In this document: piece by piece, positions 46,452 through 64,000 of the stretch
Layout: every line of letters starts with the position of its first letter
Numbering within the stretch: position 1 is the stretch's first letter
Source of the DNA: Devosia rhizoryzae
GTDB taxonomy: Bacteria > Pseudomonadota > Alphaproteobacteria > Rhizobiales > Devosiaceae
NCBI RefSeq assembly: GCF_016698665.1
Contig: NZ_CP068046.1
Location: forward strand, 558,001 to 622,000
DNA length: 64,000 bases
Reading direction: 5' to 3'
Program-made: the position numbers and the translations under genes
Notes under the pieces: model-generated
Seen by the model: only the letters and a program-made list of their open reading frames with translations
The model's database searches: none
Told to the model about the DNA's origin: nothing

Positions 46452-47110
46452 AGATATTGGTTGGCGAAGACGATGACCGCATTGCCGAGGTTCTGCACAG
46501 CGCGTTGAGCCGATCGGGCTTTGAAGTGCATCGGGAATCCGATGGCGAGGCGGTCTGGTTTCGCGCCGACAGCGAGAGTTTCGACGCCATCATCCTTGAT
46601 CTGGGCCTTCCGCAGATGGACGGCCTTACTGTGTTGAAGCGCTGGCGGCGCGGTGGATTGCAGACGCCGGTGTTGATCCTGACCGCCCGTGGGCAATGGG
46701 AAGAGCGCGTGGAGGGCATCGAAGCGGGCGCTGATGACTATGTGGTCAAGCCGTTCCATGCGCTCGAGATCGTCGCCCGTATGAGGGCGCTTATCCGGCG
46801 GTCGAGCGGCATAGCCAGTTCCAAGGTCGTTTTCGGCAAGTACGAGCTCGATATGCGCACCATGCAGGTGACAAGCGACGGCATCCCCATGGACCTGACG
46901 CCCCAGGAATACCGATTGATCGCCTACCTCCTGCACAATAGGGGACGCGTGGTTTCACAGCTGGAAATCACCGAGCACATCTACCGGCAGGACTTCGAAC
47001 GCGATTCCAATGCGGTCGAGGTGCTGGTGGCACGGCTGCGCAAGCGGCTGGGGCATGACGTGGTCAAGACGCGGCGGGGCTTCGGCTATACTTTGGGCGA
47101 CGCGTATTGA
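46448..47110 (+). CDS. OmpR-family response regulator
   Basis: The 220-residue regulator starts at TTG, overlapping the upstream stop (TTGA). Acidic pocket EDD (residues 7-9), phospho-acceptor Asp51 (AIILDLGLPQMDG) and Lys in VVKPFHALEIVARMRALIRR are present. The winged helix ends with EVLVARLRKRLGHDVVKTRRGFGYTL. Closest in style to PhoP/QseB regulators. Its stop overlaps the start of the kinase gene. Confidence 0.92.
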   Translation: MKILVGEDDDRIAEVLHSALSRSGFEVHRESDGEAVWFRADSESFDAIILDLGLPQMDGLTVLKRWRRGGLQTPVLILTARGQWEERVEGIEAGADDYVVKPFHALEIVARMRALIRRSSGIASSKVVFGKYELDMRTMQVTSDGIPMDLTPQEYRLIAYLLHNRGRVVSQLEITEHIYRQDFERDSNAVEVLVARLRKRLGHDVVKTRRGFGYTLGDAY

Positions 47111-49192: not shown

Positions 49193-49215
49193 TCTGACGC
49201 TGCGGCGTTAGCACA

Positions 49216-49245
49216 CGGGCGTCCGCTAAAGCGGGCGCCCGTTTT
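49216..49245 (+). terminator. Terminator after the DUF1236-like gene
   Basis: CGGGCGTCCGC and GCGGGCGCCCG form an 11-base stem with one mismatch, followed by TTTTG. Confidence 0.8.
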
Positions 49246-49389: not shown

Positions 49390-50346
49390 ATGAGCGTTCT
49401 GAAGATTGGTGTTGCGGCGGGCGCCTTTGCGCTGTTGACCGCGTCGGCAATGGCACAGCAGGCAGCGGCTCCGGCAGCCGAGGCTGAGGCGCCAAAGCCA
49501 TTTGCGGCGGGCGAGCCGCTGTCCGCGACCAATGAAGCGGGCGAGGTTCAAACCCCTAGCGACAATGTCAGGGTTTTCGGCAGCTTCAACTTCACCGAGA
49601 GCTGCACCTTTGATCCCGATCGGGGACTGATCCTGGCCATGAATGCCGGAGCGCCGCAGGACGCGATCGAGAACGACGGTTTCGTTTCCTTGATCAATCC
49701 CGACGGGACGGTGCACACGGCAAAATGGATCGGCGCTACGCGCGATGGCCTGACACTCAACCATCCCTTGGGCAGCGCGATCGGCAATGGCACGCTTTAT
49801 GCGGCTGACATGGACACGGTGCGCATGTTTGATCTTGCGACCGGCGAGCCATCGGGGGAAGTTCAGATCCCTGAAGCTAACCTCCTCAACGGTATCGCAG
49901 CGACCGATGACGGTACGGTCTACGTCACCAATACCCGCGATCCGCAGCGCCTCTACAAGATCACGCCGGAAGGCGAGGCTTCGGTTCTCGTCGAGGGCGG
50001 TCCGCTGATGGCGCCCAACGGTGTTGCGATCGACGGTGACGGAAACGTCGTCGTGGTCAATATCGGCAATAACGAAGTGCTGACCTTTAGCCCTGAGGGC
50101 GAGTTGCTCAACACCGAGAATGCTGTCGAGAGCGGCAATGACGGGCTCGTCATCCTTGAAGACGGCACGAAATATGTGAGTAGCGTCCGCTTCGGCAGCA
50201 TTTCGCGCATAGCACCCGGTGAAGAGGCGGAGATCATCGCTTCGGGCATCCCGAGCGCGGCCTCGATCTGCTACGACCCGACCGAAAACCAGATCATCGT
50301 GCCGATGAATCCCAACAATGCGTTGGCTTTCGTGTCACTCGACTAA
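49390..50346 (+). CDS. Periplasmic SMP-30/gluconolactonase-like propeller protein
   Basis: The 318-residue protein has a signal peptide (MSVLKIGVAAGAFALLTASAMAQ), an Ala/Glu-rich spacer and a six-bladed-type propeller: CTFDPDRGLILAMN, NGIAATDDGTVYVTNT, APNGVAIDGDGNVVVVNIG, ASICYDPTENQIIVP. This matches SMP-30/gluconolactonase/LRE proteins. It opens the PQQ island on the same strand as the transport genes, so it may hydrolyse a lactone formed by periplasmic oxidation. That is inference. Confidence 0.8.
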   Translation: MSVLKIGVAAGAFALLTASAMAQQAAAPAAEAEAPKPFAAGEPLSATNEAGEVQTPSDNVRVFGSFNFTESCTFDPDRGLILAMNAGAPQDAIENDGFVSLINPDGTVHTAKWIGATRDGLTLNHPLGSAIGNGTLYAADMDTVRMFDLATGEPSGEVQIPEANLLNGIAATDDGTVYVTNTRDPQRLYKITPEGEASVLVEGGPLMAPNGVAIDGDGNVVVVNIGNNEVLTFSPEGELLNTENAVESGNDGLVILEDGTKYVSSVRFGSISRIAPGEEAEIIASGIPSAASICYDPTENQIIVPMNPNNALAFVSLD

Positions 50347-50360
50347 GAGCAATCCTGGCG

Positions 50361-50388
50361 GGGCGGTCGATCGATCGCCCTCCATTTT
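50361..50388 (+). terminator. Weak possible terminator after the SMP-30 gene
   Basis: GGGCG and CGCCC enclose a GTCGATCGAT centre, followed by TCCATTTT. The stem is short, so read-through into the next gene is likely. Confidence 0.35.
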
Positions 50389-50489
50389 CCCACAGTGGAT
50401 TACGAGTTGACCGCCGCCGCCATAGCGGAGAGTATCGGGCAACAAAAAATTTGACGCTGCTCAACCAGTTGCAGCGCGTGGGAGGTTTC

Positions 50490-51752
50490 ATGATCAGCGC
50501 AAGGTGGCACGCCTGCGTCTTGCCGGTCGCCATGTGGGCTTTGGCAATGCCGGTGGCAAGCCAGGAACCAGCCCAGCAAGCCGTGCGCATCGGCGTCATT
50601 CTTCCCCAAACCATAGCAGACCCGCTGCAAACGGCCGTCATCGAAGCTGCTGCTGCAGGCATTGCGATGGCTGAGGAAGAATTCAGCTTCAATGCCGAGA
50701 TGTTCGGCACCGAGTTCGCCGTCACGACGATCCGCTCCGATGACGTTGTTGCCGCTGCAGACCAGTTGGTCGCCGAAGACCATGTGCTTGCCGTGATTGG
50801 CGGATATGGCACGGCCGAAGCGACCGCACTCAGCCAATGGGCGGGCGGGGCAGGGGTGCCCTTCATCAATGTCGGGGCGGAGAGCGACACGCTCCGGAAC
50901 GAGCTTTGTGGACCGAGCACGTTCCACGTTGCGCCCAGTGCGGCGATGTATCTGGACGCGATGGCCGGATGGTATGTCCGCGCTGGGTTCCGGCGCTGGT
51001 ATGTGGTTCAGGCAGACGATGCGGAAAGCGCGTCGCAGCATGAGCGGATGTTGTGGACGCTGGATCAGCGCTTTTTTGGCGCCGAGGAAGTCGGCAGTGC
51101 CGTGGTGGCGCCCGGCGCGGGACTTTCCGAAGACACCATTGCACAAATTCGTGACAGCAATGCGGATCTTGTGCTTCTTCTTACCGGTGCCAATGACCAG
51201 CTTGCTGCGGTTTCGGCGCTGAGCGCTGCGGGGCTGGAAGCCAATGTGGCTGGCTTTCCCTATGCGGAGACACAAACCCGGCAGTTCTTTGCGGCACTCG
51301 AGGGCGCGACGGAAAAGCTGGGATCGAACTTCCGCGCCACTGCATGGGAAGCGACGCTTGATGCCTATGGCGCGCGCGAGCTCAATGCGCGTTTTCGCGA
51401 TCTGACCGGCGAGCCGATGGAGCCGAGTGCCTGGGCTGCCTACCAGGCCATCAAGCTTATCTATGAGGCGGCATTCTTTAGCGGCGGCAGCGATGTCGCC
51501 TCCGTTGTCGCCTATCTCAACGATCCGTCCAGCGTCTTTGACGTCTGGAAAGGGATCGGCACCAGTTTCCGCCCGTGGGATCGCCAGCTCAGGCAACCGG
51601 TTTATCTCGTCGAGATCAACAGCGCGGCCGAAGACGCTTTTAGCTCGGCATTCCTGGTGGGTGAGTTGCCAGCCATCTACATGCCGGGCACCGACCCGCT
51701 CGAGCGGCTCGACCAGCTGGGGGACCTGGCTGATCGCAGCACATGCCAGTGA
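50490..51752 (+). CDS. ABC-type substrate-binding protein of the PQQ alcohol dehydrogenase system
   Basis: The 420-residue periplasmic protein starts MISARWHACVLPVAMWALAMPVASQ behind GGAGG. It has the Leu/Ile/Val-type binding-protein fold (VRIGVILPQTIADPLQTAVIEAA; AVIGGYGTAEATALSQWAGGAGVPFINVGAESD). The stretch SFRPWDRQLRQP near the end is shared with the protein at 60105-61400, its paralogue. Proteins of this type accompany PQQ alcohol dehydrogenases and PedABC-like ABC systems. The ligand is unknown. Confidence 0.85.
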   Translation: MISARWHACVLPVAMWALAMPVASQEPAQQAVRIGVILPQTIADPLQTAVIEAAAAGIAMAEEEFSFNAEMFGTEFAVTTIRSDDVVAAADQLVAEDHVLAVIGGYGTAEATALSQWAGGAGVPFINVGAESDTLRNELCGPSTFHVAPSAAMYLDAMAGWYVRAGFRRWYVVQADDAESASQHERMLWTLDQRFFGAEEVGSAVVAPGAGLSEDTIAQIRDSNADLVLLLTGANDQLAAVSALSAAGLEANVAGFPYAETQTRQFFAALEGATEKLGSNFRATAWEATLDAYGARELNARFRDLTGEPMEPSAWAAYQAIKLIYEAAFFSGGSDVASVVAYLNDPSSVFDVWKGIGTSFRPWDRQLRQPVYLVEINSAAEDAFSSAFLVGELPAIYMPGTDPLERLDQLGDLADRSTCQ

Positions 51753-51784
51753 TTTTTTGACGCAAGAACATTTGAGGAGGATCA

Positions 51785-52825
51785 ATGATCAGCAACAGAT
51801 CGATTTGGAGCCTGGGGAGAACGGTTTCCGCTCTCGCCCTCTTGGCTGCGTTCACGACAATGCCTGCGCTTTCCCAGGAGGAGAACGAGCGCATCTATGT
51901 GGCGAATGAATATAATGCTGATATTTCGGTTATCGACAGTGCCACGGATGAACTGATCGCAACCATCCCGATTTCGGAACGTCCCGGCGAGGTGCGGCCC
52001 CGCGGCATGAATGTGAGCCCGGATGGCCGCATCATCTATATCTCGGTGAGCGACTTCAATCCGACGCTGGAAGCCAGCGAAGACAAGATTGTGGCCATCG
52101 ACGTTTCCACCAATGAGGTCCTGAAAGAATTCCGCGCCGGCGGCAATCCGGAGCGGCTCGATATCACGCCCGATGGCACGCAAATCTGGGCATCGCTAGA
52201 GGCGACCGCCCAAGGCGCTGGCTACAACGTCGAAACCGGCAGGCAGATCGCAACCGTTCGCGTCGGGGTCGAAGCCGAAGGCGTCGCTATCAGCCCCGAT
52301 GCCAAGTGGGTTTATGTGACAGCCGAGGCAACGCACACGGTCACCGTGATCGACCGGGAAGCGGGCAAGGCGCTCAAGCATATCATCGTTGGTAACCGGC
52401 CGCGCGTCGTCGAGTTCTCGCCCGACGGAACCAGAGCCTATGTCACCGCGGAAATCGGTGGCTCCGTTAGCGTGATCGATACGAGCACCCATACGGTGAT
52501 CGACACGATCGATCTTGGTCTAGATTCCCGGCCGGTGGAAATTGCCGTCTCCCCCGATGGCGCACGCCTTTTCGTCGCCGGTGGCGGCACGAGTGCGGTT
52601 TATGTGATCGACACGGCCACCAACACCGTGACTGACACGATCCGCGAACAGATGGGCCGGCGCCCCTGGGGCATCACGATCAACCAGGCGGGTACGCGCG
52701 TTTATACGGCGAACGGTCTTTCCGACAGCGTGTCGGTGATCGACACCGACTGTCTTTGTGTGATCGACAATATTGCCGTGGGCCGCGGCGCCCACTCCGT
52801 GCAGGTGGGGAGGGCGCCCGAATGA
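51785..52825 (+). CDS. YVTN-type beta-propeller protein of the PQQ catabolism system
   Basis: The 346-residue exported protein (signal: LGRTVSALALLAAFTTMPALSQ) consists of repeated units of the form V-I-D-T-x-T-N/H-T-V-x-D-T-I and SPDG (GMNVSPDGRIIYISVSD, VEFSPDGTRAYVTAE, IAVSPDGARLFVAGG), a seven-bladed propeller. It matches the beta-propeller family that accompanies PQQ-dependent alcohol catabolism. Its stop overlaps the start of the next gene (ATGA). Confidence 0.88.
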   Translation: MISNRSIWSLGRTVSALALLAAFTTMPALSQEENERIYVANEYNADISVIDSATDELIATIPISERPGEVRPRGMNVSPDGRIIYISVSDFNPTLEASEDKIVAIDVSTNEVLKEFRAGGNPERLDITPDGTQIWASLEATAQGAGYNVETGRQIATVRVGVEAEGVAISPDAKWVYVTAEATHTVTVIDREAGKALKHIIVGNRPRVVEFSPDGTRAYVTAEIGGSVSVIDTSTHTVIDTIDLGLDSRPVEIAVSPDGARLFVAGGGTSAVYVIDTATNTVTDTIREQMGRRPWGITINQAGTRVYTANGLSDSVSVIDTDCLCVIDNIAVGRGAHSVQVGRAPE

Positions 52826-53937
52826 AGTGCTCCCTCTTCAATACGGCTCTTCTTGGTGCCATCAGCAGCATAGCTCTCATCGCTTCTCCTGTGCTGGCGC
52901 AGTACCAGAACAAACCGTTTATCGACGGCACCGTGCAACAGAGCCAAGCGCGAGCTTTCGAGCTGGCTGGCCTGCGGCTCGACATTGCTGAAGCGCTGCA
53001 AGGTGAAACCGACGACGAGTTCATCGAGCAGATCGAAGGGCTCGAAGGTGACTTTGCGCGTTTCGGCGGAACCCTTGCGACGGCGAATGCCGAACTGGCC
53101 GAGGAGCTCGATGCAGCTTTCGAGGCTGTGGTTCCAACTGTTCAATCGGGCTCCGATGCGAAGGCCGATATCGATGAGGCCAGAACCCTCCTGGCCGATG
53201 CCTATGCGACGGTGATCGCCCCCGACGTGCAAGCGACGCCGGCGTTCAAGGCCGCAGTTCTTGCCGACCTCCTGCTTGGCGAGCCTGGCGTCGCCGAGGG
53301 CTATGAAGAGGCGGGGGAAGAGCCCTATGCCTTTTCGCTTGGCTGGGCGGCACTGGCGCGGGCCAACGTGCTTTGGGACGAGATTTCAGCTGACGCGGAC
53401 ACCGCGCCCAAGGCCGACGGCGACGAGATGCTGGCGTTCATCGGGACGCTTTATCCAAGCGCCGAGCCACCGGAACAGTTCACCGGCAATCCGGAAGAGG
53501 CTGAGGCTCCGGCTCAGCGCCTGGTTGGCATTATCGAGACCATGGTCGATGCCGATCTTTATCCCGGCCGTGACCAGGCGAGCCTTGCAACCCATCTGGC
53601 GAGCCTCACCGGTCCAGCCTGTCAGGCCTATGCCGCCGGCAACGATGCTGTTGCAGACGAAACGATCTATGCGGTGCAGGGCCACTACGCCGATCATCTT
53701 GGGGAACTGACCAATCTCTTTGATCCCGAGCTTCATGAGCGGGTGCAAAGCTTGTTCGGCAGCATGGTTCAGGTCGAGGACGACGACGAGGAAGCCGAAG
53801 GCGACGAGGCAGATGTCAGTGCCGATGCCCAGGATGATGAAGCCGAAGACGAAGCGGTGGAACCTGGCTCTGCCGCTGACAGTTGCACGGAGCTGACCGA
53901 GGCCCTTGGCCAGGTAAGGAGCGTCCTTGGCGGCTGA
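52822..53937 (+). CDS. Unknown periplasmic protein of the PQQ island
   Basis: The 371-residue protein starts at the ATG overlapping the propeller gene and has a signal peptide (MKCSLFNTALLGAISSIALIASPVLAQ). The mature part is largely helical and acidic. Two cysteines lie in GPACQAYAAGNDAVADE and AADSCTELTEAL, and an acidic stretch (VEDDDEEAEGDEADVSADAQ) precedes the C-terminus. I recognise no family. Its place between propeller and ABC ATPase genes, coupled on both sides (the ATPase start lies inside its 3' end), makes it part of the same machine. Confidence 0.8.
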   Translation: MKCSLFNTALLGAISSIALIASPVLAQYQNKPFIDGTVQQSQARAFELAGLRLDIAEALQGETDDEFIEQIEGLEGDFARFGGTLATANAELAEELDAAFEAVVPTVQSGSDAKADIDEARTLLADAYATVIAPDVQATPAFKAAVLADLLLGEPGVAEGYEEAGEEPYAFSLGWAALARANVLWDEISADADTAPKADGDEMLAFIGTLYPSAEPPEQFTGNPEEAEAPAQRLVGIIETMVDADLYPGRDQASLATHLASLTGPACQAYAAGNDAVADETIYAVQGHYADHLGELTNLFDPELHERVQSLFGSMVQVEDDDEEAEGDEADVSADAQDDEAEDEAVEPGSAADSCTELTEALGQVRSVLGG

Positions 53938-54757
53938 ACCCACAAATGCTGCGGTGCCGGCGATCGAAGCGATCGAGCTTCGGCGCAGCTATGGCACCGT
54001 GTCAGCGGTCAACGACATCAGCTTTTCGGTACGGCAGGGGGAATTCTTTGCCGTACTGGGGCCCAATGGCGCTGGCAAATCGACACTGATGCATATGCTG
54101 ACAACGGTGACAGAGCCGTCTGGCGGCACCGCCAAAGTGCTGGGTTTCAACGTGGCCACGCAGCAGGGCGAGGTGCGCAAGCTTCTCGGCATGGTGTTTC
54201 AGGACACAGCGCTCGACGAGCGGATGACGGCGGGGGAAAACCTCCATATCCATGCCGTGCTCTATGGCATTGCCCGGCAGGAGCGGGCGGAGGCCGTCAA
54301 TCGCGCACTGGCCTGGGCCGAGCTTGAAGACGTGGACAAGCGTCTGGTCCGCACATTTTCCGGAGGTATGAAGCGGCGCCTGGAACTGGCGCGGGCGCTG
54401 ATGCACCGCCCGCGCGTGCTGTTTCTGGATGAACCAACCATCGGGCTCGATCCGCAAGGACGTCGTCACCTTTGGGACCGGATCGCTTCTATTCGCGATG
54501 AAGGCGTGACCGTTCTGATGACGACGCACAACCTCAACGAGGCCAATGCATGTGATCGCGTGGCCATCGTCGACAATGGTAAGCTCGTGGCGCTGGACAC
54601 GCCGGCGGCCCTGATCGAGGCCCATACGCCAGGCGTTGGGGCGACGCTTGAAGACGCCTTCCTGGCGCTGACCGGCCGGAGCTTGCGCGACCAGGGCGCT
54701 TCGGGGCGCGATCAATTGCTGAGCTTCAGCAAGCGCGGTGGGGAATTGACACGATGA
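53927..54757 (+). CDS. ABC transporter ATPase of the PQQ alcohol dehydrogenase system
   Basis: The 276-residue ATPase begins at TTG, which has AGGAG five bases upstream inside the preceding gene; the genes overlap by 11 bases. Walker A is LGPNGAGKST, the signature TFSGGMKRRLELARAL, Walker B VLFLDEPTIGLD, and the switch His is in TTHNLNEA. The closest known type is the ATP-binding subunit of PQQ alcohol dehydrogenase-linked systems, which belongs to the ABC-2 exporter group. The permease gene overlaps its end by four bases. Confidence 0.92.
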   Translation: MAAEPTNAAVPAIEAIELRRSYGTVSAVNDISFSVRQGEFFAVLGPNGAGKSTLMHMLTTVTEPSGGTAKVLGFNVATQQGEVRKLLGMVFQDTALDERMTAGENLHIHAVLYGIARQERAEAVNRALAWAELEDVDKRLVRTFSGGMKRRLELARALMHRPRVLFLDEPTIGLDPQGRRHLWDRIASIRDEGVTVLMTTHNLNEANACDRVAIVDNGKLVALDTPAALIEAHTPGVGATLEDAFLALTGRSLRDQGASGRDQLLSFSKRGGELTR

Positions 54758-55686
54758 GCGCGGTTTCAGGCGTTCGGTCATGGGCGGGTATTGCCCCTGA
54801 TGTGATCTGGGTGCTGTGGAGGCGCGAGGTCACGCGGTTTTTTCGCGATCGGTCGCAGATTTTCGGTGCCGTTTCCCGCACGATCCTGTGGCTCGTCATC
54901 CTTGGCTACGGAATCGGCGCCGCGCTTCGCGAGATCGAGGGCTATTCCTATGCCCAGTACATCCTTCCCGGCGTCATCACGCTCAACGTCCTTTTTGCTT
55001 CACTGCAATGTGCGATCGCATTGGTCTGGGACCGGGAAGTGGGCCTTTTGCGCGATGTGCTGGTTTCTCCGTCTCCCAGTCTCTCGGTTGCGCTTGGCAA
55101 GCTCTTTGGCGGCGCGACGATCTCGGTGTTTCAAGGCTCGATTCCGTTGCTGCTGGCGCCTATCATCGGAGTCGACCTGACGATCGGCTCGGTGCTGGGC
55201 GCCTGGGCGGTCATGTTCATGATGGGCATGTTCATGACGGCACTTGGCGTCGTGGTGGCAACGCGGCTCAAGACATTCGAGGGCTTTGGCAGCATTTCCA
55301 ACGGGCTGATTCAGCCGCTTTATTTCCTTTCCGGCTCGATCTTTCCGCTCAAGGGCATCATCGGCGGCGTCGGCTTTCTCGATGTGCCGGCAACGCTGCG
55401 CGAAGAATTGCGGCGCGCCGGCATCAATGCCTTTGGCAGCGGCTGGATCGTGCAATTGCCGGAGTGGTTACAGATTCTGGTCTACTGCAATCCTGTCAGT
55501 TACCAGCTCGACCTTCTGCGCTATGTGCTGCTCGACTATGAGCAATTGCCGCTGCAGCTCGATATCGGGCTGACTGTTGCCTTGCCAATTGCCGCCTCGG
55601 CGATTGCGGCCCGCGAGATCAAGCATGCCCTGCGCACTGCGGGTCCGCGGCGACGCAAAAAGGCGGCACCGGGTGGCGCCGCCTGA
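54754..55686 (+). CDS. ABC-2 type permease, PedC-like
   Basis: The 310-residue permease has six helices typical of ABC-2 membrane proteins: FFRDRSQIFGAVSRTILWLVILGYGIGAAL at the start, then the LLRDVLVSPSPSLSVALGKLFGGATIS loop and QPLYFLSGSIFPL. It resembles PedC of the alcohol ABC system. The start overlaps the ATPase stop (ATGA). ABC-2 permeases are exporters, yet two importer-type binding proteins are coded in the same locus. Confidence 0.9.
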   Translation: MSAVSGVRSWAGIAPDVIWVLWRREVTRFFRDRSQIFGAVSRTILWLVILGYGIGAALREIEGYSYAQYILPGVITLNVLFASLQCAIALVWDREVGLLRDVLVSPSPSLSVALGKLFGGATISVFQGSIPLLLAPIIGVDLTIGSVLGAWAVMFMMGMFMTALGVVVATRLKTFEGFGSISNGLIQPLYFLSGSIFPLKGIIGGVGFLDVPATLREELRRAGINAFGSGWIVQLPEWLQILVYCNPVSYQLDLLRYVLLDYEQLPLQLDIGLTVALPIAASAIAAREIKHALRTAGPRRRKKAAPGGAA

Positions 55687-55710
55687 GGGTGGATCGTCGT
55701 CAAACTTGGG

Positions 55711-56178
55711 TTAGGCGGGGTTTGCCTGTTCGCCCGAGTCGGTATCGTCGACGAAGATCGTCACGGTGCCTTCCTGGTTGATCCAGAGGTCCATCACGTC
55801 ATCGACGGTGAAATCGGCATCTTCGATGGCGCCAACAACGACGCTGTTGCTGGCGAGCAATTCGCGAACGGCGCCAATATCGCCAGCGTCGGAGGGAATG
55901 CCGACAGTATATTCGTCACGATTGTCGAGGGCGTCCTCTTCCATGGTGGAAAGCGGCACGATCTCGATGGTCGACTCAGCGCTGAAGTTGATGTCTGAGG
56001 ACGCAAAGGTCTGCAGTTCTTCCTCGAACTTTTCCCAATCGACCTCTCCGGTGGCCGCGGACGTGCTTTGGGCGCCGGTGGCTTCGGTCGTGGTTGCCGG
56101 TGTTGCGGCTTCCTGAGCGAAAGCGTGCAGCGGCAGGGCAAGAACTGCACAAACAGCAAGGGCGGAAATCTGCTTCAT
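55711..56178 (-). CDS. Unknown acidic periplasmic protein (155 aa)
   Basis: The protein starts MKQISALAVCAVLALPLHAFAQ (signal peptide). A Thr/Ala-rich stretch is followed by an acidic domain (VDWEKFEEELQTFASSDINFS ... VGAIEDADFTVDDVMDLWINQEGTVTIFVDD). No family was recognised. It is on the minus strand with the cytochrome c gene upstream, separated by a terminator. Confidence 0.72.
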   Translation of the reverse strand: MKQISALAVCAVLALPLHAFAQEAATPATTTEATGAQSTSAATGEVDWEKFEEELQTFASSDINFSAESTIEIVPLSTMEEDALDNRDEYTVGIPSDAGDIGAVRELLASNSVVVGAIEDADFTVDDVMDLWINQEGTVTIFVDDTDSGEQANPA

Positions 56179-56294
56179 GATCGTTCTCCAAATGGCGTCT
56201 GAATGACTCCTGGAGAGCAAACGCATCTTGCTGATGCCGGTTGCACAAGTCCGCTGCGCGCCATAGCGGCTTAGACCGAACGAGCAAACAAAAA

Positions 56295-56318
56295 GAGTAG
56301 CCGCTTTCGCGACTACTC
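56295..56318 (-). terminator. Terminator after the cytochrome c gene (minus strand)
   Basis: On the minus strand GAGTAG-TCGC, a GAAA loop, GCGG-CTACTC and then TTTTTGTTTG form a stem with a T-run, 33 bases after the cytochrome stop. Confidence 0.85.
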
Positions 56319-56350
56319 CTGATTGTGACTTCCAAGGTGCGTTGGCAGCC

Positions 56351-56785
56351 TTAGTTGGCAGTGGCGCCTTCTTGTTCTTCCGGCGGGACCGCACGGCGCA
56401 GCTCGACCGAGCGGGGCAGGAGGATGCCCGCTTCGTTGGTCCAGGAATTGCGCACATAGGTAGCAACTGCGGCGATCTCTTCGTCCGTCAAGACCGGTGC
56501 GAAGGGCGGCATGCCGTGGTCGGTTGCGCCGTAAAGGATCTGGAAGCTGAGGGCCGAGCGGCTCTTAACCACAGCCGAACCGATCAGGGAAGGACCGGCG
56601 CCGCCTTCACCATTGGCGCCGTGGCAGGCAGCACAATTGTCATTATAGACGGGGCCGCCCATTTCGATCAGAGCCTGAAGCGACGCATCGTCATTCTGAT
56701 ACGTTGCGTCCTGCGCATAGGCGGTTCCCCCCACCAGCGCACAGGCCAAAATCGCGGCCGAGAGCCCAGAAGCTAACTTTTTCAT
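56351..56785 (-). CDS. Periplasmic cytochrome c, probable PQQ dehydrogenase electron acceptor
   Basis: The 144-residue class I cytochrome c has a signal peptide (MKKLASGLSAAILACALVGGTAYAQ), the haem site C51-A-A-C-H55 and a probable Met92 ligand in HGMPPFAPVLTDEE. It is divergent from the PQQ dehydrogenase gene, with 333 bases between. This placement and the length resemble PedF and XoxG, which take electrons from PQQ alcohol dehydrogenases. Confidence 0.88.
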   Translation of the reverse strand: MKKLASGLSAAILACALVGGTAYAQDATYQNDDASLQALIEMGGPVYNDNCAACHGANGEGGAGPSLIGSAVVKSRSALSFQILYGATDHGMPPFAPVLTDEEIAAVATYVRNSWTNEAGILLPRSVELRRAVPPEEQEGATAN

Positions 56786-57118
56786 GCCTTCCTCCTCATT
56801 ATATACGGCAATAACTTACACCCAGCTTTGTGGGTTGCAGAATTCTCTTATCACTGCTCCCGGCCAGCGGCGAAGTCAACAATCTCCCACGGCCGGCATG
56901 TTTGATCTTGCAGGAACCACGGCGAATTAGGCTCGCTTAGGCGCCAAACTCAACACCGACTTAATGTTTACTACAGTGATCAAACCGGCACTTGCATATG
57001 CTTGGAGCTTCTGCAAAGCTCACTGGCCAGACACATTTGCGCCGCCGTTGAGCCGGATCTTAGCAAAACAATCCGAGACGTCGCCGGGTCTGACAGCATC
57101 CTTTACGGGGAGGACTTT
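56786..57118. promoter_or_regulatory. Divergent intergenic region, cytochrome c / PQQ dehydrogenase
   Basis: The 333-base gap must hold both promoters. It has an AT-richer patch near 56955-57000 (TTAATGTTTACTACAGTGATCAAA). A frame open upstream of the dehydrogenase start lacks a ribosome binding site; the true start has GGGGAGGA. I see no clear operator or riboswitch. Confidence 0.4.
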
Positions 57119-59068
57119 ATGACTTTCAAGAAATCAGGGGGCCTGACATGGGCGTCCTTGGCAGTAGTAGCATTGATGGGCACTACGGCGGCATTGGCTA
57201 ACGAGGACGTTCTGACGCTCTCGGCCGATCCTGCCAATAACGTGATGCCCAACATCACCTATAATGGCCAAAATTTCAGTCAGCTCGACGAGATCAATCT
57301 CGACAATGTCGACGATCTCCAGGTGGAATGGACGTTCCAGCTCGGCGTCGCCGACGAAGCGCAGGCGCCGCCGCTGGTGGTTGGCGACACGATGTTTGTG
57401 GTCACCCCCAAGCCGAACCGCGTTTACGCGATCGACCTCAACGAGCAGGGCGCGATCAAGTGGGAATTTCGCGCCGACGCATCCAACCTTGAGCAGGTTG
57501 TGCCGGTCGCATGCTGCGGCGCGCAGACGCGCGGCGCCAACTATGCCGATGGCAAGCTGTTCTTCCAGTCGCTGGGTGGTCACATCTATGCGCTCGATGC
57601 GGAAAGCGGCGAGCTGGTCTGGGACGTTCAGAACACCGACATCGACAATGCCGAGACCATGGTTGGCAACGGCCTGATCGTCGACGACCTCTACATCACC
57701 GGCATGGCCGGCGGTGAATATGGTGTTCGTGGCTATGTGACCGCCTACAACATCGATACCGGCGAACGCGCATGGCGCTTCTACAGCACCGGCCCGAACG
57801 AAGAAGTCGGCATTACCGACCGCTTCAAGCCCTTCTATGATTTCGACAAGGTGGAAAACCCGGCTGAGTCCTCCTGGCTGGAAGACAGCTGGCGCAATGG
57901 TGGTGGCTCCACCTGGGGTTACTTCACCTATGACCCCGACCTGAAGCTCTTCTACTATGCCACCGGCAACTGTGGTCCGTGGAACCCTGACTATCGCCGT
58001 CCGTGGGGCGAAATCGACCTCAATGAAGATGGTGTTGTCCAGTCCTATCGCAGCAATTACTGCGCTTCGATGCTGGCACGCGACGTCAAGACCGGCGAAC
58101 TGGCCTGGGCCCTCAACCTGTCGCCGCAGGATCAGTGGGACCTTGACGAGCCGGGCGCTCCGGTGCTTGCCGATATCGAAATGAACGGCGAGATGAAGAA
58201 GACCATTATCCGCGCTGCGCGTAATGGCTACTTCTACGTCATCGACCGTGCTACCGGCGAAGTTCTCAACGACCCCTGGCCGTTTGCCTACCAGAACATC
58301 TTCACCGGCTTCGACAAGAAGACCGGCAGCCCGACCTACAATGTCGACACGCTGCTGTTCACCAATCCCGAAGATCGCCTGAAGTACACCGAAGCCGGTG
58401 CTCTGACCGACGCGCAGATCAACATCAACACCGAAGAAGCCGAACTCTACGGCGAAGACGAAGTTGATGGTCCGTCCGGTACCGAAGCGACGGTCTGCCC
58501 GACCATTGCTGCCCGTAACTGGGAAAACGACGCCTACTCGCCCCAGACTGGCCTGCTCTATACCAGTGTCCAGTTCGGCTGCCGCTCGATGCGCGTGACC
58601 GAGGGTACCTATTCCTACCCGGCTACCGAAACGTACATCCTGTTCGAATGGGCAGGCGAAAAGTTCTGGCTGGACAAGGAAGGCAACGAGACCGACGTCA
58701 AGAACCAGCTGCAGGCCAACGACCCGGTTACCGGCAAGACGGTGTGGAGCGTGGACTACGTGCAGCCGACCCAGGATCCGATCCTGGCGACCGCTGGCGG
58801 CCTGCTCTTTGTGGGTGGTGACGACAAGGGTGTGTTCCGCGCCATCAACGCCGAGAATGGCGAAACGGCTTGGGAATTCCGCACGGGCACTCAGGCTTCG
58901 GCCTCGCCGGTGACCTTCCTTGCTCCCGATGGCGGCCAGCGCATCGCCTTCGTTGCCTCTGCCCGTCCCGGCCTCGTGGCTGTGGCTGCAGACGCCGACG
59001 CCGATGCGGTCAATCGCTACCAGCGTGAAGGCAGCACTCTTTATGTCTTCAAGCTCGACCAGGACTAA
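57119..59068 (+). CDS. PQQ-dependent alcohol dehydrogenase, lanthanide (XoxF/PedH-like) type
   Basis: The 649-residue periplasmic quinoprotein has a signal peptide (LTWASLAVVALMGTTAALA) and eight propeller blades with W-docking motifs. Active-site residues are the vicinal disulfide Cys132-Cys133 (VACCGAQTRG), Glu200 (GGEYGVRGY), Trp266 under PQQ (GGGSTWGYF), Asn284 (ATGNCGPWN) and catalytic Asp341 with a second Asp343 two residues on (QWDLDEPG). The second Asp marks lanthanide-binding enzymes; calcium enzymes have Ala or another small residue there. There is no fused cytochrome. The ATG follows GGGGAGGA. It probably oxidises alcohols and passes electrons to the divergent cytochrome c. Confidence 0.93.
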   Translation: MTFKKSGGLTWASLAVVALMGTTAALANEDVLTLSADPANNVMPNITYNGQNFSQLDEINLDNVDDLQVEWTFQLGVADEAQAPPLVVGDTMFVVTPKPNRVYAIDLNEQGAIKWEFRADASNLEQVVPVACCGAQTRGANYADGKLFFQSLGGHIYALDAESGELVWDVQNTDIDNAETMVGNGLIVDDLYITGMAGGEYGVRGYVTAYNIDTGERAWRFYSTGPNEEVGITDRFKPFYDFDKVENPAESSWLEDSWRNGGGSTWGYFTYDPDLKLFYYATGNCGPWNPDYRRPWGEIDLNEDGVVQSYRSNYCASMLARDVKTGELAWALNLSPQDQWDLDEPGAPVLADIEMNGEMKKTIIRAARNGYFYVIDRATGEVLNDPWPFAYQNIFTGFDKKTGSPTYNVDTLLFTNPEDRLKYTEAGALTDAQININTEEAELYGEDEVDGPSGTEATVCPTIAARNWENDAYSPQTGLLYTSVQFGCRSMRVTEGTYSYPATETYILFEWAGEKFWLDKEGNETDVKNQLQANDPVTGKTVWSVDYVQPTQDPILATAGGLLFVGGDDKGVFRAINAENGETAWEFRTGTQASASPVTFLAPDGGQRIAFVASARPGLVAVAADADADAVNRYQREGSTLYVFKLDQD

Positions 59069-59109
59069 ATAGCTGGCGGCCGGACAGGCCGCTCGCTTCA
59101 CAAGCAATC

Positions 59110-59142
59110 CGCCCGGCGCGCTTCACGCTTGCCGGGCGTTTT
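59110..59142 (+). terminator. Terminator after the PQQ dehydrogenase gene
   Basis: CGCCCGGC (59110-59117) and GCCGGGCG (59131-59138) form an 8-base stem followed by TTTTCG. Confidence 0.85.
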
Positions 59143-59241
59143 CGTCAGACCGTCCAGACGACAGCTTCGCCGACGCGCCACAAGGTTGCGCCCCCAGGCG
59201 GTTCGTCGGGCCCATTGAGTGGCCACAACTCAGGATTTCAG

Positions 59242-60108
59242 ATGAAACAGTTTTTCCGGCGCGATGACTGGCCGAAAGCGGCCCGCAGCGCTGCAACCTT
59301 TGCCCTTGCCACCGCAGTCTCCTCCAGTTTCTGGATTGCCGCCCAACCCTCGATGGCTTGGGAGTTGCGCGCCTGCGCCGATCCCGCAGGCATGCCGCAG
59401 ACCAATCGCGAGTCTGAGGGCTACGAGAACAAGATCATAGAGATCCTCGCCGAGGATATCGGCGCCGAGCTGACCTATCAGTGGTGGACGTTGACGACGA
59501 CCGTCATTCCCCAGCAACTGCGGGAAGGCAATTGCGATATCGTCATCGGCGGTCCCGATGGCGGCAATGGCGTGATCTCGACGATCGCCTACTATCGCAG
59601 TCCTTATGCCTTCGTGTACCGGGCCGACGAAGACTACGAGATTGCCACCTATGACGACCCCATCCTCAAGGATCTGCGGCTTGCGACGACCGTTGAAGGC
59701 ACAAGTTCGCATCTGGCGCTTTCGCGCCGCGGCTTGCTCGATCACATCACCACAAGCGCGCAGGCGGCCGGTACCAATTCCTCGGACCGCTTTGCCGATC
59801 TGATCGCCTCCGTCGCCCGTGGCGATACCGATGTCGCCGTGCCGTGGGGGCCGGTTGCCGGCTATTACGCCGCGCAGCAAGATCCGCCGCTTACAGTGGT
59901 GCCAGTACCCGAATTCGATATTCCCTTCACACCCATGTACCACTCAATCGTCATCGCGCTTCGCCCCGGTGACGAGGAATTGCGCGATCTCCTGGACGAC
60001 GCGCTGGCGCGGCGGTGGGACGACATCTATGCCGTTCTCGAAGAATACAATGTTCCGACCTTGCCTCTGCCGCGGCCGTCGGTCTCCATTGAGGAACAGC
60101 AACCATGA
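59242..60108 (+). CDS. XoxJ-like quinoprotein-associated periplasmic binding protein
   Basis: The 288-residue protein starts MKQFFRRDDWPKAARSA with a signal peptide ending near SMAWE. It has the amino-acid-type binding fold (LRACADPAGMPQTNRESEGYENKIIEILAEDIGAELTYQWW; NCDIVIGGPDG), typical of the substrate-binding-like proteins coded beside methanol/ethanol quinoproteins (XoxJ/MxaJ). In XoxF systems this protein may help activate the dehydrogenase. Its stop overlaps the next start by four bases. Confidence 0.87.
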   Translation: MKQFFRRDDWPKAARSAATFALATAVSSSFWIAAQPSMAWELRACADPAGMPQTNRESEGYENKIIEILAEDIGAELTYQWWTLTTTVIPQQLREGNCDIVIGGPDGGNGVISTIAYYRSPYAFVYRADEDYEIATYDDPILKDLRLATTVEGTSSHLALSRRGLLDHITTSAQAAGTNSSDRFADLIASVARGDTDVAVPWGPVAGYYAAQQDPPLTVVPVPEFDIPFTPMYHSIVIALRPGDEELRDLLDDALARRWDDIYAVLEEYNVPTLPLPRPSVSIEEQQP

Positions 60109-61400
60109 CCATTATCACTCGGCGGTTTTTCCTTGCGGGTGCTTCGGCAGTGATCGGCGCCAGTCTTGTCCGTCCGGGCAGTGCCGTGGCAGCGGCTCCT
60201 GCTGATATCCGCATCGGCACGGTTTTCCCAGTCAGGACCGGCGCTTCGTTTATCCACGCTTCGGTCAATGACTTCATCGGCACCGCGGGCCGTATCGGCG
60301 TGCAGCTTGCCGATACGCAATTGGGTACGCGGGCCGAAGAGGCAGGCTCATCGCTCCATGTGCTTCTTGCCAACGCTCCCACGGTCGAGGCTGCGGTTCG
60401 CGCCGGCGAGCGCCTGGTGGAAGTGGAGAAGGTGCATGCGCTGGTTGGCGGCGTAGGTGAAGGCCAGGCCGAAGCCCTGGCGGAGATCGCTGCCCGCGCC
60501 AAGATCCCCTTCTTCAATGTGGGGGAAACCTCCGACGCATTCCGGCGCGACGCTTCTAGCCCGTACCTTTTCCACATCGAAGCCAGCGACGCCATGTATC
60601 TTGATGCATTGGCGCAGTTGGCGGTGCAGCAGGGACACAAGCGCTGGCTTGTCGTTTCCGACAACAGCGACCGCGGCGTGGCCCTCAGCCAGCGTGCTGA
60701 ATTGGCTGCGCAGAAGGCTGGTTGCACCATCGTCGAAACGGTGGAACTGCCGGCGGCAAGTCCGGTTTATTTCGCCGAGATCGAGGACATGGCCGCGGTC
60801 GATGCGGATGTTATCGTTGTCCTGATCAACTATCAGGACTTTTTCACGCTCACGGTGCAGATGGAAGAGGAGGGGATCACGACACCGATCCTGACCTTCC
60901 CGCACACCATCACTCAAACGCGTGACTTCGTTGCTGCCTCGCGCGGGCGCCTCAGCGTTCTCAGCCCCAAACGCCACGTGGCGCTCTGGGAAACGACGCG
61001 CACTGAATTCGGTGCCGATGATTTCAACCTTCAGGTGCAGGCGCGCTTCTCGGAACCGGCCGATCCGACCGCATGGGCATCGTTCCACGCGATCAAGATC
61101 ATCCTTGAAGCGGCGATCGCGGCGGGGTCTACCGACGCCGACGCAATGGTCGCCTATCTCGAAGATCCTCAGACCACGTTCGATGTGCTCAAAGGGCCCG
61201 GCGTGTCGTTCCGCCCCTGGGATCACCAATTGCGGCAGCCCCTGGCGGTAGTCGATGTCAGAAACGACGTGGTCTGGCGTGAACGCGAGATTGCGACACG
61301 CGTCGCGGCGGCAGCCGACGGCGGTACCCTGCCGGAAGGCGCGCCGGGCGATGACGCGATGCAATGGCTCGACACCCTTGGGGACGGGCCGGAAGACTGA
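60105..61400 (+). CDS. Second ABC-type binding protein of the PQQ system (Tat-exported)
   Basis: The 431-residue protein starts with a twin-arginine signal (TRRFFLAGASAVIGASLV), unlike its Sec-exported paralogue at 50490-51752. The fold is Leu/Ile/Val-binding-like (ADIRIGTVFPVRTGASF, ALVGGVGEGQAEALAEIAARAKIPFFNVGE). The end shares FDVLKGPGVSFRPWDHQLRQP with the paralogue. It overlaps the XoxJ-like gene and probably acts with the PedC-like ABC pair. Confidence 0.87.
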   Translation: MTIITRRFFLAGASAVIGASLVRPGSAVAAAPADIRIGTVFPVRTGASFIHASVNDFIGTAGRIGVQLADTQLGTRAEEAGSSLHVLLANAPTVEAAVRAGERLVEVEKVHALVGGVGEGQAEALAEIAARAKIPFFNVGETSDAFRRDASSPYLFHIEASDAMYLDALAQLAVQQGHKRWLVVSDNSDRGVALSQRAELAAQKAGCTIVETVELPAASPVYFAEIEDMAAVDADVIVVLINYQDFFTLTVQMEEEGITTPILTFPHTITQTRDFVAASRGRLSVLSPKRHVALWETTRTEFGADDFNLQVQARFSEPADPTAWASFHAIKIILEAAIAAGSTDADAMVAYLEDPQTTFDVLKGPGVSFRPWDHQLRQPLAVVDVRNDVVWREREIATRVAAAADGGTLPEGAPGDDAMQWLDTLGDGPED

Positions 61401-61496
61401 CGGTCCAGACACTATTGCGACCAGCCAGCAGCGGGGAGGCTGCTTTGGCTGGTCGAGTCCTGGCTCCGCGAGGACACAAGTTGCTGAGGAGGCAAC

Positions 61497-63695
61497 ATGT
61501 ATATTCTGAACTCTCGGCCCCTTGCTGGCGCGTGGGGCAGGGGCACAGCCCGTTCCCGTGCCAACAACTGCGCTGCCTTGTTGCTTGCCTTCCTAGTTTT
61601 CGTTGCAGGTGTTTCGGTCGCCTTTGCGCAGACGCCGCGGCTGCTTGAGGGGCGCGCCACGCCCAGGATCATCGAAGCCCTGTTTCCCGGGGCCGACCGG
61701 TTTGAACCTTCAGACGGCACGCCCCGCTTTGTTCGCGTGTTCCAGGGCGATGTGCAGCTTGGGTACCTCTTTTCCACGCTCGACGTGGTGCGTGCACGCA
61801 GCTACTCGCCCGTCCCCTTCGATGCCATTGTCGGCATGGACATGGAGGGCAAGCTGACGGGCGCGAAGGTCATCGATTTTCATGATCCTTACCTCATGGG
61901 CTTCCCGCAACGCGTGGAAAGGCTGGCCGAGTTCCTCGACGACCATATCGGCTACGGAGTGGGGGCCACGGAACCGGCGCCGCACACCCCTGATTTCGTG
62001 CAGGGCACGACGATCTCCGCCCGCAACATGCGTGCCGGTATCCTCGATGCTGGTCGTGTCATAATGCGTGCCAATGACCCTCTTCCGCCGGTGACCGAGC
62101 CGACGCTCAACCGCCTCGATTTCTCCTTCCATGGCTGGGACGAGTTGCTCGAAATGGGCGCAGTTTCGGAGGAGCTCGTCACCTTTGGCGACGTTCGAGC
62201 AGCCTTTGCCAAAGCGGGGGTCGAGCCGGCCGAAATGGACGTGCCGCTCGACAGGGCGCGTTCGGATGACGAGCGCTACACCCAGCTCGTTGTTGCGCTC
62301 GCCACTCCGGCGTTGATCGGCCGCAATGTCATCCGCGACACGGATTTCGGCAAACTCGTCGAAACCGCTCCTGATGATGTCGTGATGCTCGCGGTTATGT
62401 CGGGTGGCTACTACAACTTCCTGGGCACGCAGTATCGATCGGCCGAAGCCGGCAATCGGTTCGACCGGATGCGTCTGGTTCAGGGCGACCTCAACCTTGA
62501 TCTCTTTGAAAAAGACTTCCAGTTTGCGGGCCAGTCTATCCAGCGTGCCGGCGGACCGCGCGTGCGCGATGCTGGACTTTTCACCATACCGCTGAGCTCG
62601 GGCTTTGATCCGTTTGCCCCTTTCGAGGTGCGTCTGATGGTGCATGCGGCCGACGCAGCTGGTGCGCTGCATACGGTTGAGTTCCCGGTCCAATACCAGG
62701 TCCCGGCTGAAGCCGTGCTGTTGCCGCCGGTCGAGCCGCCGCCACCGTGGGTGGAAGCCTGGCGCGCTTCCTGGCTGGAGCTGAGCATCCTTGGCACGGC
62801 GCTTACCGTCCTGACGCTGATCTTCGTGTTCCAGGATCAGCTGGCCCGGCACCGGCAGCTGCATCGCTGGCTGCGGCCAGCATTTCTTGCCTTTACGCTG
62901 ATCTGGCTCGGCTGGATCGCCGGTGGGCAGCTGTCGATCGTCCATGTGGTCAACTACATCAAGGCTCCGTTCGACGGTGCCGATCTCGGCTATTATCTAG
63001 CCGAACCTCTGATCGTAGTGATCGCGATCTATGTCGTTTTGTCGCTAATCCTGATCGGACGGGGCGTGTTCTGCGGCTGGCTTTGCCCGTTTGGTGCGCT
63101 GCAGGAACTGACGTCCAAAATCGCGCGCTTCTTGCGGTTGCCGGTGTGGAACCCTTCCGAAAAGCAGCAGCGGCTGATGTGGCTGCCCAAATACGGTTTG
63201 GCCGCGATCATTGTGGGAACGGCCTTCATCGCACCCGAGGCTTTGGCTAGCGCAGAAGAGGTCGAGCCGTTCAAGACCGCGATCACGTCGGTCTTCACCC
63301 GGCCGGCCCCCTATGTTGCCTATGCGCTGCTGCTGTTGACCATCGGACTTTTCACCGAGCGCTTCTTTTGCCGCTTCCTTTGCCCGCTGGGCGGGGTGCT
63401 GGCGCTTGGCGACCGGCTGCACCTTTTCACTTTCCTCAAGCGCAGGCCGGAATGTGGGACGGGTGGCTGCCACCTCTGTGAACGTTCATGCCCGGTCAAG
63501 GCCATCGAGCGCGATGGCAAGATCATCATGGCGGAATGCTTCCAGTGCCTGGATTGCCAGGTGGAGTATTACGACGATCACCGCTGCCCGCCACTTGCCC
63601 AAGCCCGCAAGAAGCGCGAGCGCGCCGCCAGCAAGCACAAGCCGCTGGTGATGACGATCAATGGCGCGACGCCGCCTGCGACGGCTGCGAGCTGA
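61497..63695 (+). CDS. NosR/NirI-like membrane flavin and iron-sulfur protein
   Basis: The 732-residue protein has a signal/anchor (CAALLLAFLVFVAGVSVAFAQ), a periplasmic FMN-binding domain (about 85-185), and a Pro-rich end before about five membrane helices. Two polyferredoxin motifs (CGWLCPFGALQEL, CRFLCPLGGVLALGD) and a 4Fe-4S region (CGTGGCHLCERSCPVKAIE, then CFQCLDCQ) follow. The architecture is that of NosR/NirI. No nos or nir genes are present; the context is PQQ alcohol oxidation. The expected flavin-attachment motif is D-F-V-Q-G-T-T (166-172), with Thr172 retained. An apbE-type gene follows at 11 bases. Confidence 0.88.
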   Translation: MYILNSRPLAGAWGRGTARSRANNCAALLLAFLVFVAGVSVAFAQTPRLLEGRATPRIIEALFPGADRFEPSDGTPRFVRVFQGDVQLGYLFSTLDVVRARSYSPVPFDAIVGMDMEGKLTGAKVIDFHDPYLMGFPQRVERLAEFLDDHIGYGVGATEPAPHTPDFVQGTTISARNMRAGILDAGRVIMRANDPLPPVTEPTLNRLDFSFHGWDELLEMGAVSEELVTFGDVRAAFAKAGVEPAEMDVPLDRARSDDERYTQLVVALATPALIGRNVIRDTDFGKLVETAPDDVVMLAVMSGGYYNFLGTQYRSAEAGNRFDRMRLVQGDLNLDLFEKDFQFAGQSIQRAGGPRVRDAGLFTIPLSSGFDPFAPFEVRLMVHAADAAGALHTVEFPVQYQVPAEAVLLPPVEPPPPWVEAWRASWLELSILGTALTVLTLIFVFQDQLARHRQLHRWLRPAFLAFTLIWLGWIAGGQLSIVHVVNYIKAPFDGADLGYYLAEPLIVVIAIYVVLSLILIGRGVFCGWLCPFGALQELTSKIARFLRLPVWNPSEKQQRLMWLPKYGLAAIIVGTAFIAPEALASAEEVEPFKTAITSVFTRPAPYVAYALLLLTIGLFTERFFCRFLCPLGGVLALGDRLHLFTFLKRRPECGTGGCHLCERSCPVKAIERDGKIIMAECFQCLDCQVEYYDDHRCPPLAQARKKRERAASKHKPLVMTINGATPPATAAS

Positions 63696-63706
63696 GGAGC
63701 GTTGCG

Positions 63707-64000
63707 ATGACCAAGGCTCCTCCATCCTTGTCCCGCCGCCGCGTCCTGCGCATCCTTGCCGCGTCGGCCGCTTTGCCGATCGGCGTCGCAGGCTACCGCA
63801 TTTTCGGTCCGCAACCGGTGCTGCATCAATGGCAGGGGGAAGCCTTGGGCGCCGAGGCGTCCATGCAGCTCTGGCATGCTAATGCCGGCCATGCTCAGCG
63901 CACGTTTGCGCGCATGGCATCTGAAATCGGGAGGCTTGAACGCGTCTTCAGCCTCCATCGGCCCGACAGCGAGATCTCACAGCTGAACCGCGATGGCGTT
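63707..64000 (+). CDS. apbE: ApbE-like FAD:protein FMN transferase (3' end cut by window edge)
   Basis: The first 98 residues are visible and the frame runs off the right edge. An N-terminal twin-arginine-like signal (SRRRVLRILAASAALPIG) is followed by the ApbE start (WQGEALGAEASMQLWH, then RLERVFSLHRPDSEISQLNRDG). ApbE attaches FMN covalently to Thr in FMN-binding domains such as that of the NosR-like protein coded just upstream. A GAGGAG site precedes the ATG. Confidence 0.88.
   Translation, partial: MTKAPPSLSRRRVLRILAASAALPIGVAGYRIFGPQPVLHQWQGEALGAEASMQLWHANAGHAQRTFARMASEIGRLERVFSLHRPDSEISQLNRDGV

Follow-up and report, generated by a model that had tools for sequence, protein, structure and literature searches.

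A probable lanthanide-type alcohol oxidation island in Devosia rhizoryzae with a divergent Ped/Lut-like ABC block, an unnamed helical protein, and a NosR/ApbE pair

Introduction

Two bacterial lanthanide systems are among the closest described counterparts of the locus examined here. In Pseudomonas putida, loss of the ATP-binding cassette (ABC) transporter genes pedA1A2BC raises the lanthanum requirement about 100-fold (PMC6839425), and in Methylorubrum extorquens the lutA, lutE, and lutF mutants retain lanthanum in the periplasm (PMC7391723). Little is known of how lanthanides are handled apart from the dehydrogenase and the importer, and descriptions of natural lanthanide-binding proteins are few; besides the dehydrogenases, four are named in PMC10848612. 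The DNA analyzed, referred to as the window, comprises 64,000 nucleotides (positions 558001–622000) of the single-contig genome of Devosia rhizoryzae (3.52 Mb, 99.95% complete). At its right end lies an island of 13 genes, B to N (49390–64711 in window numbering, the last gene, apbE, extending 711 bases beyond the window end), in which a pyrroloquinoline quinone (PQQ) dehydrogenase (J) is found with an ABC block, a helical protein of an unnamed family (E), and a NosR/NirI-family protein (M) paired with ApbE (N). The core reading, which places the island as a divergent member alongside the XoxF/PedH dehydrogenases and the Lut/PedA1A2BC lanthanide systems, is well supported. Gene content, motifs, gene order, and conservation are reported below as found in the sequences, and the roles of the dehydrogenase, cytochrome, XoxJ-like protein, and importer are taken from homologs.

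Results

A dehydrogenase with lanthanide-type ligands

J (57119–59068, + strand) matched PF01011 with 190.3 bits and the methanol/ethanol dehydrogenase family model TIGR03075 with 434.8 bits, under the cut-off of 480.05 bits. Its best solved match is the XoxF structure 4mae, whose E172, N256, D299, and D301 align with E200, N284, D341, and D343 of J and whose vicinal cysteines align with C132–C133. We take those four residues of 4mae to be its metal ligands and make the same kind of assumption for the role of the cysteine pair; the "lanthanide-type" label given to the locus in a preliminary description, made without database searches, agrees with this alignment. E200, N284, and C132–C133 were present in the window protein and in all 21 rows of a smaller alignment. 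A second alignment of the J clade, 43 rows after 9 of its 52 loci had been left out as too short, kept the D-x-D motif (D341/D343) in every row, the Glu ligand in 39 (Asp in the other 4), the Asn in 41, and the Cys pair in 41. In a tree built from 34 of 71 aligned rows, with ten XoxF-type homologs of the same taxonomic order for comparison and the named XoxF1–5 references not included, the J clade formed a separate branch with support of 100/100. J is probably a lanthanide-dependent PQQ alcohol dehydrogenase of a distinct clade, as far as sequence comparison can tell. The clade may already have been counted under another label in an ocean-genome survey, because that survey covers 17 PQQ dehydrogenase families, with up to 70 lanthanide enzymes per genome (PMC11996626).

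The gene has a patchy distribution. Sequences at least 50% identical to J were found in 3 of 297 genomes of the order (the D. rhizoryzae genome and two others, G202 and G182 in our numbering), the others among the matches listed being at most 44% identical. At an E-value of 1e-60, homologs occurred in none of six genomes of the same genus and in one of six other genomes of the same family. A scan for the clade returned 53 loci, of which one spurious match (L097, 27% identity) was dropped; the remaining 52 belong to the Alphaproteobacteria, Acidobacteria, and Deinococcota and to one metagenome-assembled genome (MAG) of the Bacillota.

J is accompanied by a cytochrome c gene, I (56351–56785, − strand; PF13442, 56.3 bits), in divergent orientation, and is followed by K (59242–60108, + strand), a XoxJ/PedG-like protein scoring 210.2 bits on TIGR03871 (cut-off 212.15), and by L (60105–61400, + strand), a second PedA1-type binding protein with 103.8 bits on TIGR03863 (cut-off 413.6) and 33% identity to the first, C.

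Conservation of gene order

Thirteen genomes were found to carry J-K-L (the dehydrogenase block) together with D-E-F-G (the ABC block, in most cases including C), and the gene order of the island is conserved beyond chance. Of the 53 scanned loci, 10 combine J, K, and L with some of the ABC genes, and the D. rhizoryzae genome, G202, and G182 complete the 13, which comprise 10 alphaproteobacteria, 2 Deinococcota, and the Bacillota MAG. Most are MAGs, and neighborhoods stop at contig ends. L follows K and E adjoins D in all 13, and E adjoins the ATPase in 12, the order in the Bacillota MAG being F-G-C-D-E. For C, G303 gave no match and G182 a fragment; in both, the permease was matched in two pieces. 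By identity of J, the nearest cassettes are those of G297 (Rhizobiales bacterium UBA3584, 81%), G202 (74%), and G298 (Roseitranquillus sediminis, 59%).

The preliminary description had proposed one multi-part periplasmic system, a view that loss of the gene order in relatives would contradict; retention of the order in 13 genomes supports it. The island is not spread across the Hyphomicrobiales as a whole: the dehydrogenase has the narrow distribution within genus and family given above, and the core cassette occurs without NosR in the two Deinococcota and the Bacillota MAG. Comparison with same-genus genomes for an empty site showed flanks that are not syntenic.

The ABC block and its canonical relatives

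C (50451–51752), D (51785–52825), F (53927–54757), and G (54754–55686), all on the + strand, stand in the order of pedA1-A2-B-C, with E (52822–53937, + strand) between D and F; D, E, F, and G each overlap the next, end to start. C is a PedA1/LutA-type periplasmic binding protein (PF13458, 128 bits; TIGR03863, 139 bits, cut-off 413.6), D a PedA2-type propeller (TIGR03866, 223.7 bits, cut-off 287.3), F an ABC ATPase in the PedB/LutE position (PF00005; TIGR03864, 219.7 bits, cut-off 302.25), and G an ABC-2 permease in the PedC/LutF position (PF01061, 91.7 bits; TIGR03861, 119.4 bits, cut-off 241.35). Because all four proteins score below the curated cut-offs, the block is called a divergent relative, and it probably works like PedA1A2BC. 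The preliminary description had regarded the transport role as not established; this needs correction, as mutants of the divergent counterparts in the same gene order, PedA1A2BC and LutA/LutE/LutF, show these to be required when lanthanide is scarce or for bringing it into the cytoplasm (PMC6839425, PMC7391723).

ATPases above the TIGR03864 cut-off were found in at least 37 of 121 genomes of the same order, at most 21 candidates being scored per genome. Twenty of the 38 places listed were taken as a sample of canonical loci and viewed to about 8 kb on each side. Homologs of C, D, F, and G were present in 16 of these, in C-D-F-G order on one strand in 12, and a XoxF-type gene with XoxJ lay alongside in 5. 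None of the 20 contained E (by profile search), NosR, or ApbE. A LutH-like receptor was not seen in the D. rhizoryzae genome, the only TonB receptor found there being of the heme type.

Protein E

E is a glutamate-rich protein of 371 amino acids with a signal-like N terminus (start codons and signal-like N termini throughout were judged by eye from the reading frames). No Pfam family reached its cut-off with E and none of the NCBIfam models matched it, and its family comprises 55 database proteins including itself; no match was found in plasmids. Glu accounts for 11 of 43 near-invariant columns (nominal P 0.012), and a Cys pair is invariant. Its AlphaFold model is all-helical with a mean predicted local distance difference test score of 90. 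Foldseek returned nothing at an E-value of 0.001 or better: the best matches were alpha-catenins (E 0.02, template modeling score at most 0.30), and EfeO/EfeM-like metal proteins appeared only at E above 1. A profile search of solved structures gave only a designed helical bundle (E 1.9e-5 over 67 residues), taken as a low-information match.

By gene number, lutC and lutD of M. extorquens occupy the place held here by E, lutD directly before lutE, and LutD binds lanthanide (PMC9260416, PMC10848612). In 11 of the 20 canonical loci this slot between propeller and ATPase was viewed, and 6 held a small protein there, these proteins being related to one another. We infer from its position that E is a carboxylate-rich periplasmic metal binder, and its Glu composition as a sign of metal binding is suggestive only.

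The NosR-like protein and ApbE

M (61497–63695, + strand) scored 457.6 bits on the curated NosR model NF046105 (cut-off 1000) and carries a flavin-attachment-like motif, two CxxxCP motifs, and Fe-S cysteines, all kept in the 16 copies aligned. By these motifs M qualifies as a NosR/NirI-like membrane flavoprotein, for which covalent flavin mononucleotide is predicted. The adjoining N (63704–64711, + strand, to 64000 within the window) is apbE, encoding an FAD:protein FMN transferase (PF02424, 211.1 bits). M is 34.7% identical to a protein of Sinorhizobium meliloti pSymA, presumably the NosR of its nos operon, although the record is unannotated. N2O reduction was considered as the reason for NosR and rejected: none of 10 genomes reached the 625-bit cut-off of TIGR04246, the NosZ model used (the one for TAT-type NosZ was not applied), and 9 of the 10 gave matches of at most 35 bits, to the last ~100 positions of the model.

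A NosR-like gene was found near the ABC block in 9 of the 10 alphaproteobacterial cassettes, the exception being G298, at about 4 to 7 kb from the ATPase in 8 of the 9 and at ~16 kb in G202, a distance beyond the reach of the canonical stretches. ApbE adjoins the linked NosR in 5 of the 9. The pair stands directly before the ABC block, in the same direction, in G303 and G182, and in G299 to G302 NosR lies beyond C, at the end opposite the dehydrogenase. As no NosR occurs in the three non-alphaproteobacterial cassettes and none is linked in G298, M is placed outside the cassette core.

Mere coincidence of neighborhood appears highly improbable as an explanation of this link. NosR-like genes are multicopy in some genomes, and the chance of one falling within 16 kb is 0.8–6.5% per genome; the nine linked cases are not independent, since the genomes are related. 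Against coincidence, linkage was seen in 9 of 10 genomes, in varied positions, and in 0 of 20 canonical loci, and the linked copies fall in two deep branches of the NosR tree, with 4 label changes (3–4 in bootstraps, with starred branches forcing at least 2) in a tree that omits the G300:C11 copies and a short G182:C11 piece.

M and N might serve the dehydrogenase and not metal import. The flavin/Fe-S module would then link the quinone pool by electron exchange with cytochrome c I or J, for example to reduce and mature the enzyme or to keep the chain in balance. J-K-L-M-N run in one direction in the window with gaps of 173, −4, 96, and 8 bases, NosR has been proposed as electron donor to N2O reductase (PMC7660919), and another quinoprotein gene lies within about 6 kb in 4 of 17 non-cassette NosR stretches. 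Such genes are common in those genomes, however, so the 4 of 17 may be chance; three cassettes have no NosR, the ABC block begins with NosR-apbE in G303 and G182, and in G299 to G302 NosR is remote from the dehydrogenase. Service to the dehydrogenase seems possible on this evidence, if doubtful. At modest odds, metal import is preferred to catalysis as the role of the pair, given its lead position in the ABC operon of G303 and G182 and its location past C in G299 to G302.

The four quinoprotein-family genes are at L127:8391, L143:996, L147:12040, and L149:4925, three scoring 258–344 bits on TIGR03075 and the fourth 115 bits on PF01011. G303, G182, and G299 to G302 each gave 4–9 dehydrogenase matches (E 1e-60) and 3–8 NosR-like matches, some of them one gene in pieces, so the two families have expanded together. 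In G202 the stretch from the second PedA1-type gene to NosR (L039:5203–11603) encodes a cupredoxin, an FTR1 permease, a cupredoxin-imelysin protein, a DyP-type peroxidase, an imelysin, and an AtzD-like ring-opening amidohydrolase.

Cofactor supply

The preliminary description saw no PQQ synthesis genes in the window, and this holds for the genome as searched: PqqC gave no match and PqqE none over cut-off (best 45.9 against 381.35 bits), PqqA, B, and D not having been searched. Since neither was found in a single-contig genome, PQQ is probably supplied from outside the cell. Among the 13 cassette genomes PqqC exceeded its cut-off in 7; it was not found in the D. rhizoryzae genome, G297, G299, and the three non-alphaproteobacterial MAGs. 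Of 14 genomes in which PqqE was sought, two (G202 and G182) had it above cut-off.

The same result could mean that the island was acquired and is now decaying or seldom used, with J usually empty of cofactor, and the patchy occurrence, including its absence from the six same-genus genomes, would fit. We consider this unlikely: all 13 reading frames are open, several with overlapping starts, base composition gives no sign of recent transfer (GC content 0.610 in the island, 0.621 in the rest of the window), and five other cassette genomes (MAGs, completeness not given) also gave no PqqC.

Limits and remaining genes of the island

All genes named or implied by the preliminary description were recovered as open frames where it had placed them. 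At the left, B (49390–50346, + strand) encodes an SMP-30/NHL-type propeller of the SGL family (PF08450, 33.6 bits; PF01436) with a signal-like N terminus, and a propeller of this type also adjoins the cassette in G297 and G298. In G182 (L043:1189–2472) a propeller-like protein, 27% identical to B, is fused to cytochrome c beside a clade dehydrogenase, which suggests that B works with the electron acceptor. H (55711–56190, − strand) is a small acidic near-orphan (19% Asp plus Glu, one database homolog besides itself) with a signal-like N terminus. At its place G202 (L040:194–2758) has a DUF1194/von Willebrand factor A protein, a MotA/ExbB match below cut-off, and two uncharacterized proteins; relatives of one protein of this stretch lie near NosR copies in G300, G301, and G302.

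The right boundary of the island is set by a major facilitator superfamily gene on the opposite strand. The left edge falls between 48444 and 49390, after the two-component pair at 46448–48444, because the best relatives of that pair (in G202 and G291) are at sites without the island. The pair was considered as regulator of the island and rejected, its block sitting elsewhere in relatives, and family-model scans matched no regulator family among the 13 genes. A terminator-like stem at 49215–49242 (+ strand; 12 pairs, 10 of them G-C) possibly marks the left edge, although such sites as a set are not enriched (18 against 14.7 in shuffles, standard deviation 4.6). No RNA element reached its gathering threshold.

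Elsewhere in the window are two Asn/Gly-repeat proteins with GNGNGN runs. The gene at 45696–46451 directly precedes the OmpR-type regulator and histidine kinase, and this three-gene block is also present in G202, off the island; the protein at 1859–3157 has a FecR domain, and its gene faces a CHASE2-GGDEF-EAL gene.

Discussion

Taken as a whole, the island is read, with rather better than even confidence, as a self-contained rare-earth alcohol oxidation cassette with its own importer, with E as a metal binder and with M and N serving metal import. J would reside in the periplasm, loaded with external PQQ and a lanthanide with the assistance of the XoxJ-like K, and would oxidize a primary alcohol or aldehyde, with cytochrome c I accepting the electrons. 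A divergent Lut/PedA1A2BC-type ABC system made up of C to G would move lanthanide, free or chelated, from periplasm to cytoplasm, with E as its carboxylate-rich periplasmic binder at the place taken by LutD in some known clusters. L, the other binding protein, would belong to the dehydrogenase side. N would flavinylate M, which would draw on the quinol pool and deliver electrons to a partner in the periplasm that is part of the metal-import branch. The parts given here to E and L and the partner of M and N are assigned from gene position.

Several observations weigh against this picture. No ABC block was seen in the DNA examined at 42 of the 52 clade dehydrogenase loci, all 18 acidobacterial ones included, although many of the 42 are on short contigs. 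NosR is absent from all three non-alphaproteobacterial cassettes and unlinked in G298, and within the window its gene comes after the dehydrogenase block. The argument for E from its slot is weak because the slot is empty in 5 of the 11 canonical loci viewed, and E was rejected as a relative of the proteins that fill it elsewhere, with which it had no profile match. With no PQQ synthesis found and a heme-type protein as the sole TonB receptor found, this picture leaves unexplained how PQQ and metal enter. All four Ped/Lut-like proteins, C, D, F, and G, fall short of the curated PQQ-ABC models (TIGR03863, 03866, 03864, and 03861), and the ATPase and permease score higher on efflux models, F with 276.6 bits on DrrA (cut-off 312.45) and G with 151.6 bits on DrrB (cut-off 223.05). 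The pair could on that account be a DrrAB-kind exporter, for example of toxic products or solvents, and the family name of TIGR03861 is "alcohol ABC transporter". The presence of a propeller and two periplasmic binding proteins in conserved PedA1-A2-B-C order argues otherwise, as does the homologous operon of P. putida, which is dispensable on oxidized products and needed for PedH-dependent growth at low lanthanum (PMC6839425). An exporter is accordingly judged very unlikely.

A more specific proposal, redox-assisted lanthanide acquisition, appears quite unlikely. Here NosR/ApbE would be a quinol-fed ferric reductase of the periplasm and E a new class of helical lanthanide binder. The competitor Fe(III), also a hard trivalent ion, would be reduced to Fe(II), clearing the import path, while lanthanide(III) would stay unreduced and pass to E and on to the ABC importer. 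The FTR1-type permease (EfeU-like), cupredoxin-imelysin protein (EfeO-like), DyP peroxidase (EfeB-like), and imelysin of G202, encoded in the interval from the dehydrogenase block to NosR, could provide for uptake of the Fe(II). P. putida needs more lanthanide at high iron (PMC6839425).

A single paper was found that brings together PQQ, alcohol dehydrogenase, ApbE, and NosR, and its subject is methanotrophs that respire N2O and have nos operons (PMC11102522). A literature search that omits most subscription journals found no paper with both "lanthanide" and "flavinylation", and the main text of a flavinylation survey, as far as consulted, makes no mention of PQQ, alcohol dehydrogenase, or lanthanide (PMC8238504). 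The NosR/ApbE link connects flavin-based periplasmic electron transfer with rare-earth use, and recurrence of the combination in other bacteria makes these helpers testable as parts of that use. As a compact, confidently modeled protein, E is a candidate for a further, unrelated lanthanide binder. With a rare-earth cassette present and no PQQ synthesis found, the genome is a clean case for testing cofactor sharing directly.

J shares with the XoxF methanol dehydrogenases, judged against 4mae, the metal ligands, the D-x-D motif, and the vicinal cysteines; it differs in its separate branch and in being 35–44% identical to the other listed homologs of the order, mostly over ~400 N-terminal residues. 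The likeness of E to the EfeO/EfeM/imelysin helical metal proteins is not significant, and E has no profile match to the G202 imelysins. With the nos operon (nosRZDFYLX, as annotated in Azospirillum thermophilum) the island has in common a propeller metalloenzyme, an ABC pair, NosR, and ApbE (NosX), but M is 37.2% identical to the A. thermophilum NosR and lies on another branch, and no NosZ above cut-off accompanies it. The lut cluster (lutABCDEFGH) resembles the island in the order of binding protein, ATPase, and permease, and canonical loci of the same order resemble lut; the island has no small proteins of the lutC/lutD type, and the unrelated helical E fills the gap. The ped cluster of P. 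putida KT2440 (pedA1A2BC, pedF, pedG, and pedH) likewise has a lanthanide-type PQQ alcohol dehydrogenase, a cytochrome c, a PedG/XoxJ-like protein, and the A1-A2-B-C order of ABC genes. Compared with it, the ABC proteins of the island fall under the curated models, no regulator family was matched, and the island adds E between A2 and B, a second PedA1-type protein, an SGL propeller, NosR, and ApbE. The island is a variant of the known XoxF/PedH and Lut/Ped systems, found in a genome in which PqqC and PqqE were not detected and distinguished further by protein E and by the NosR/ApbE link.

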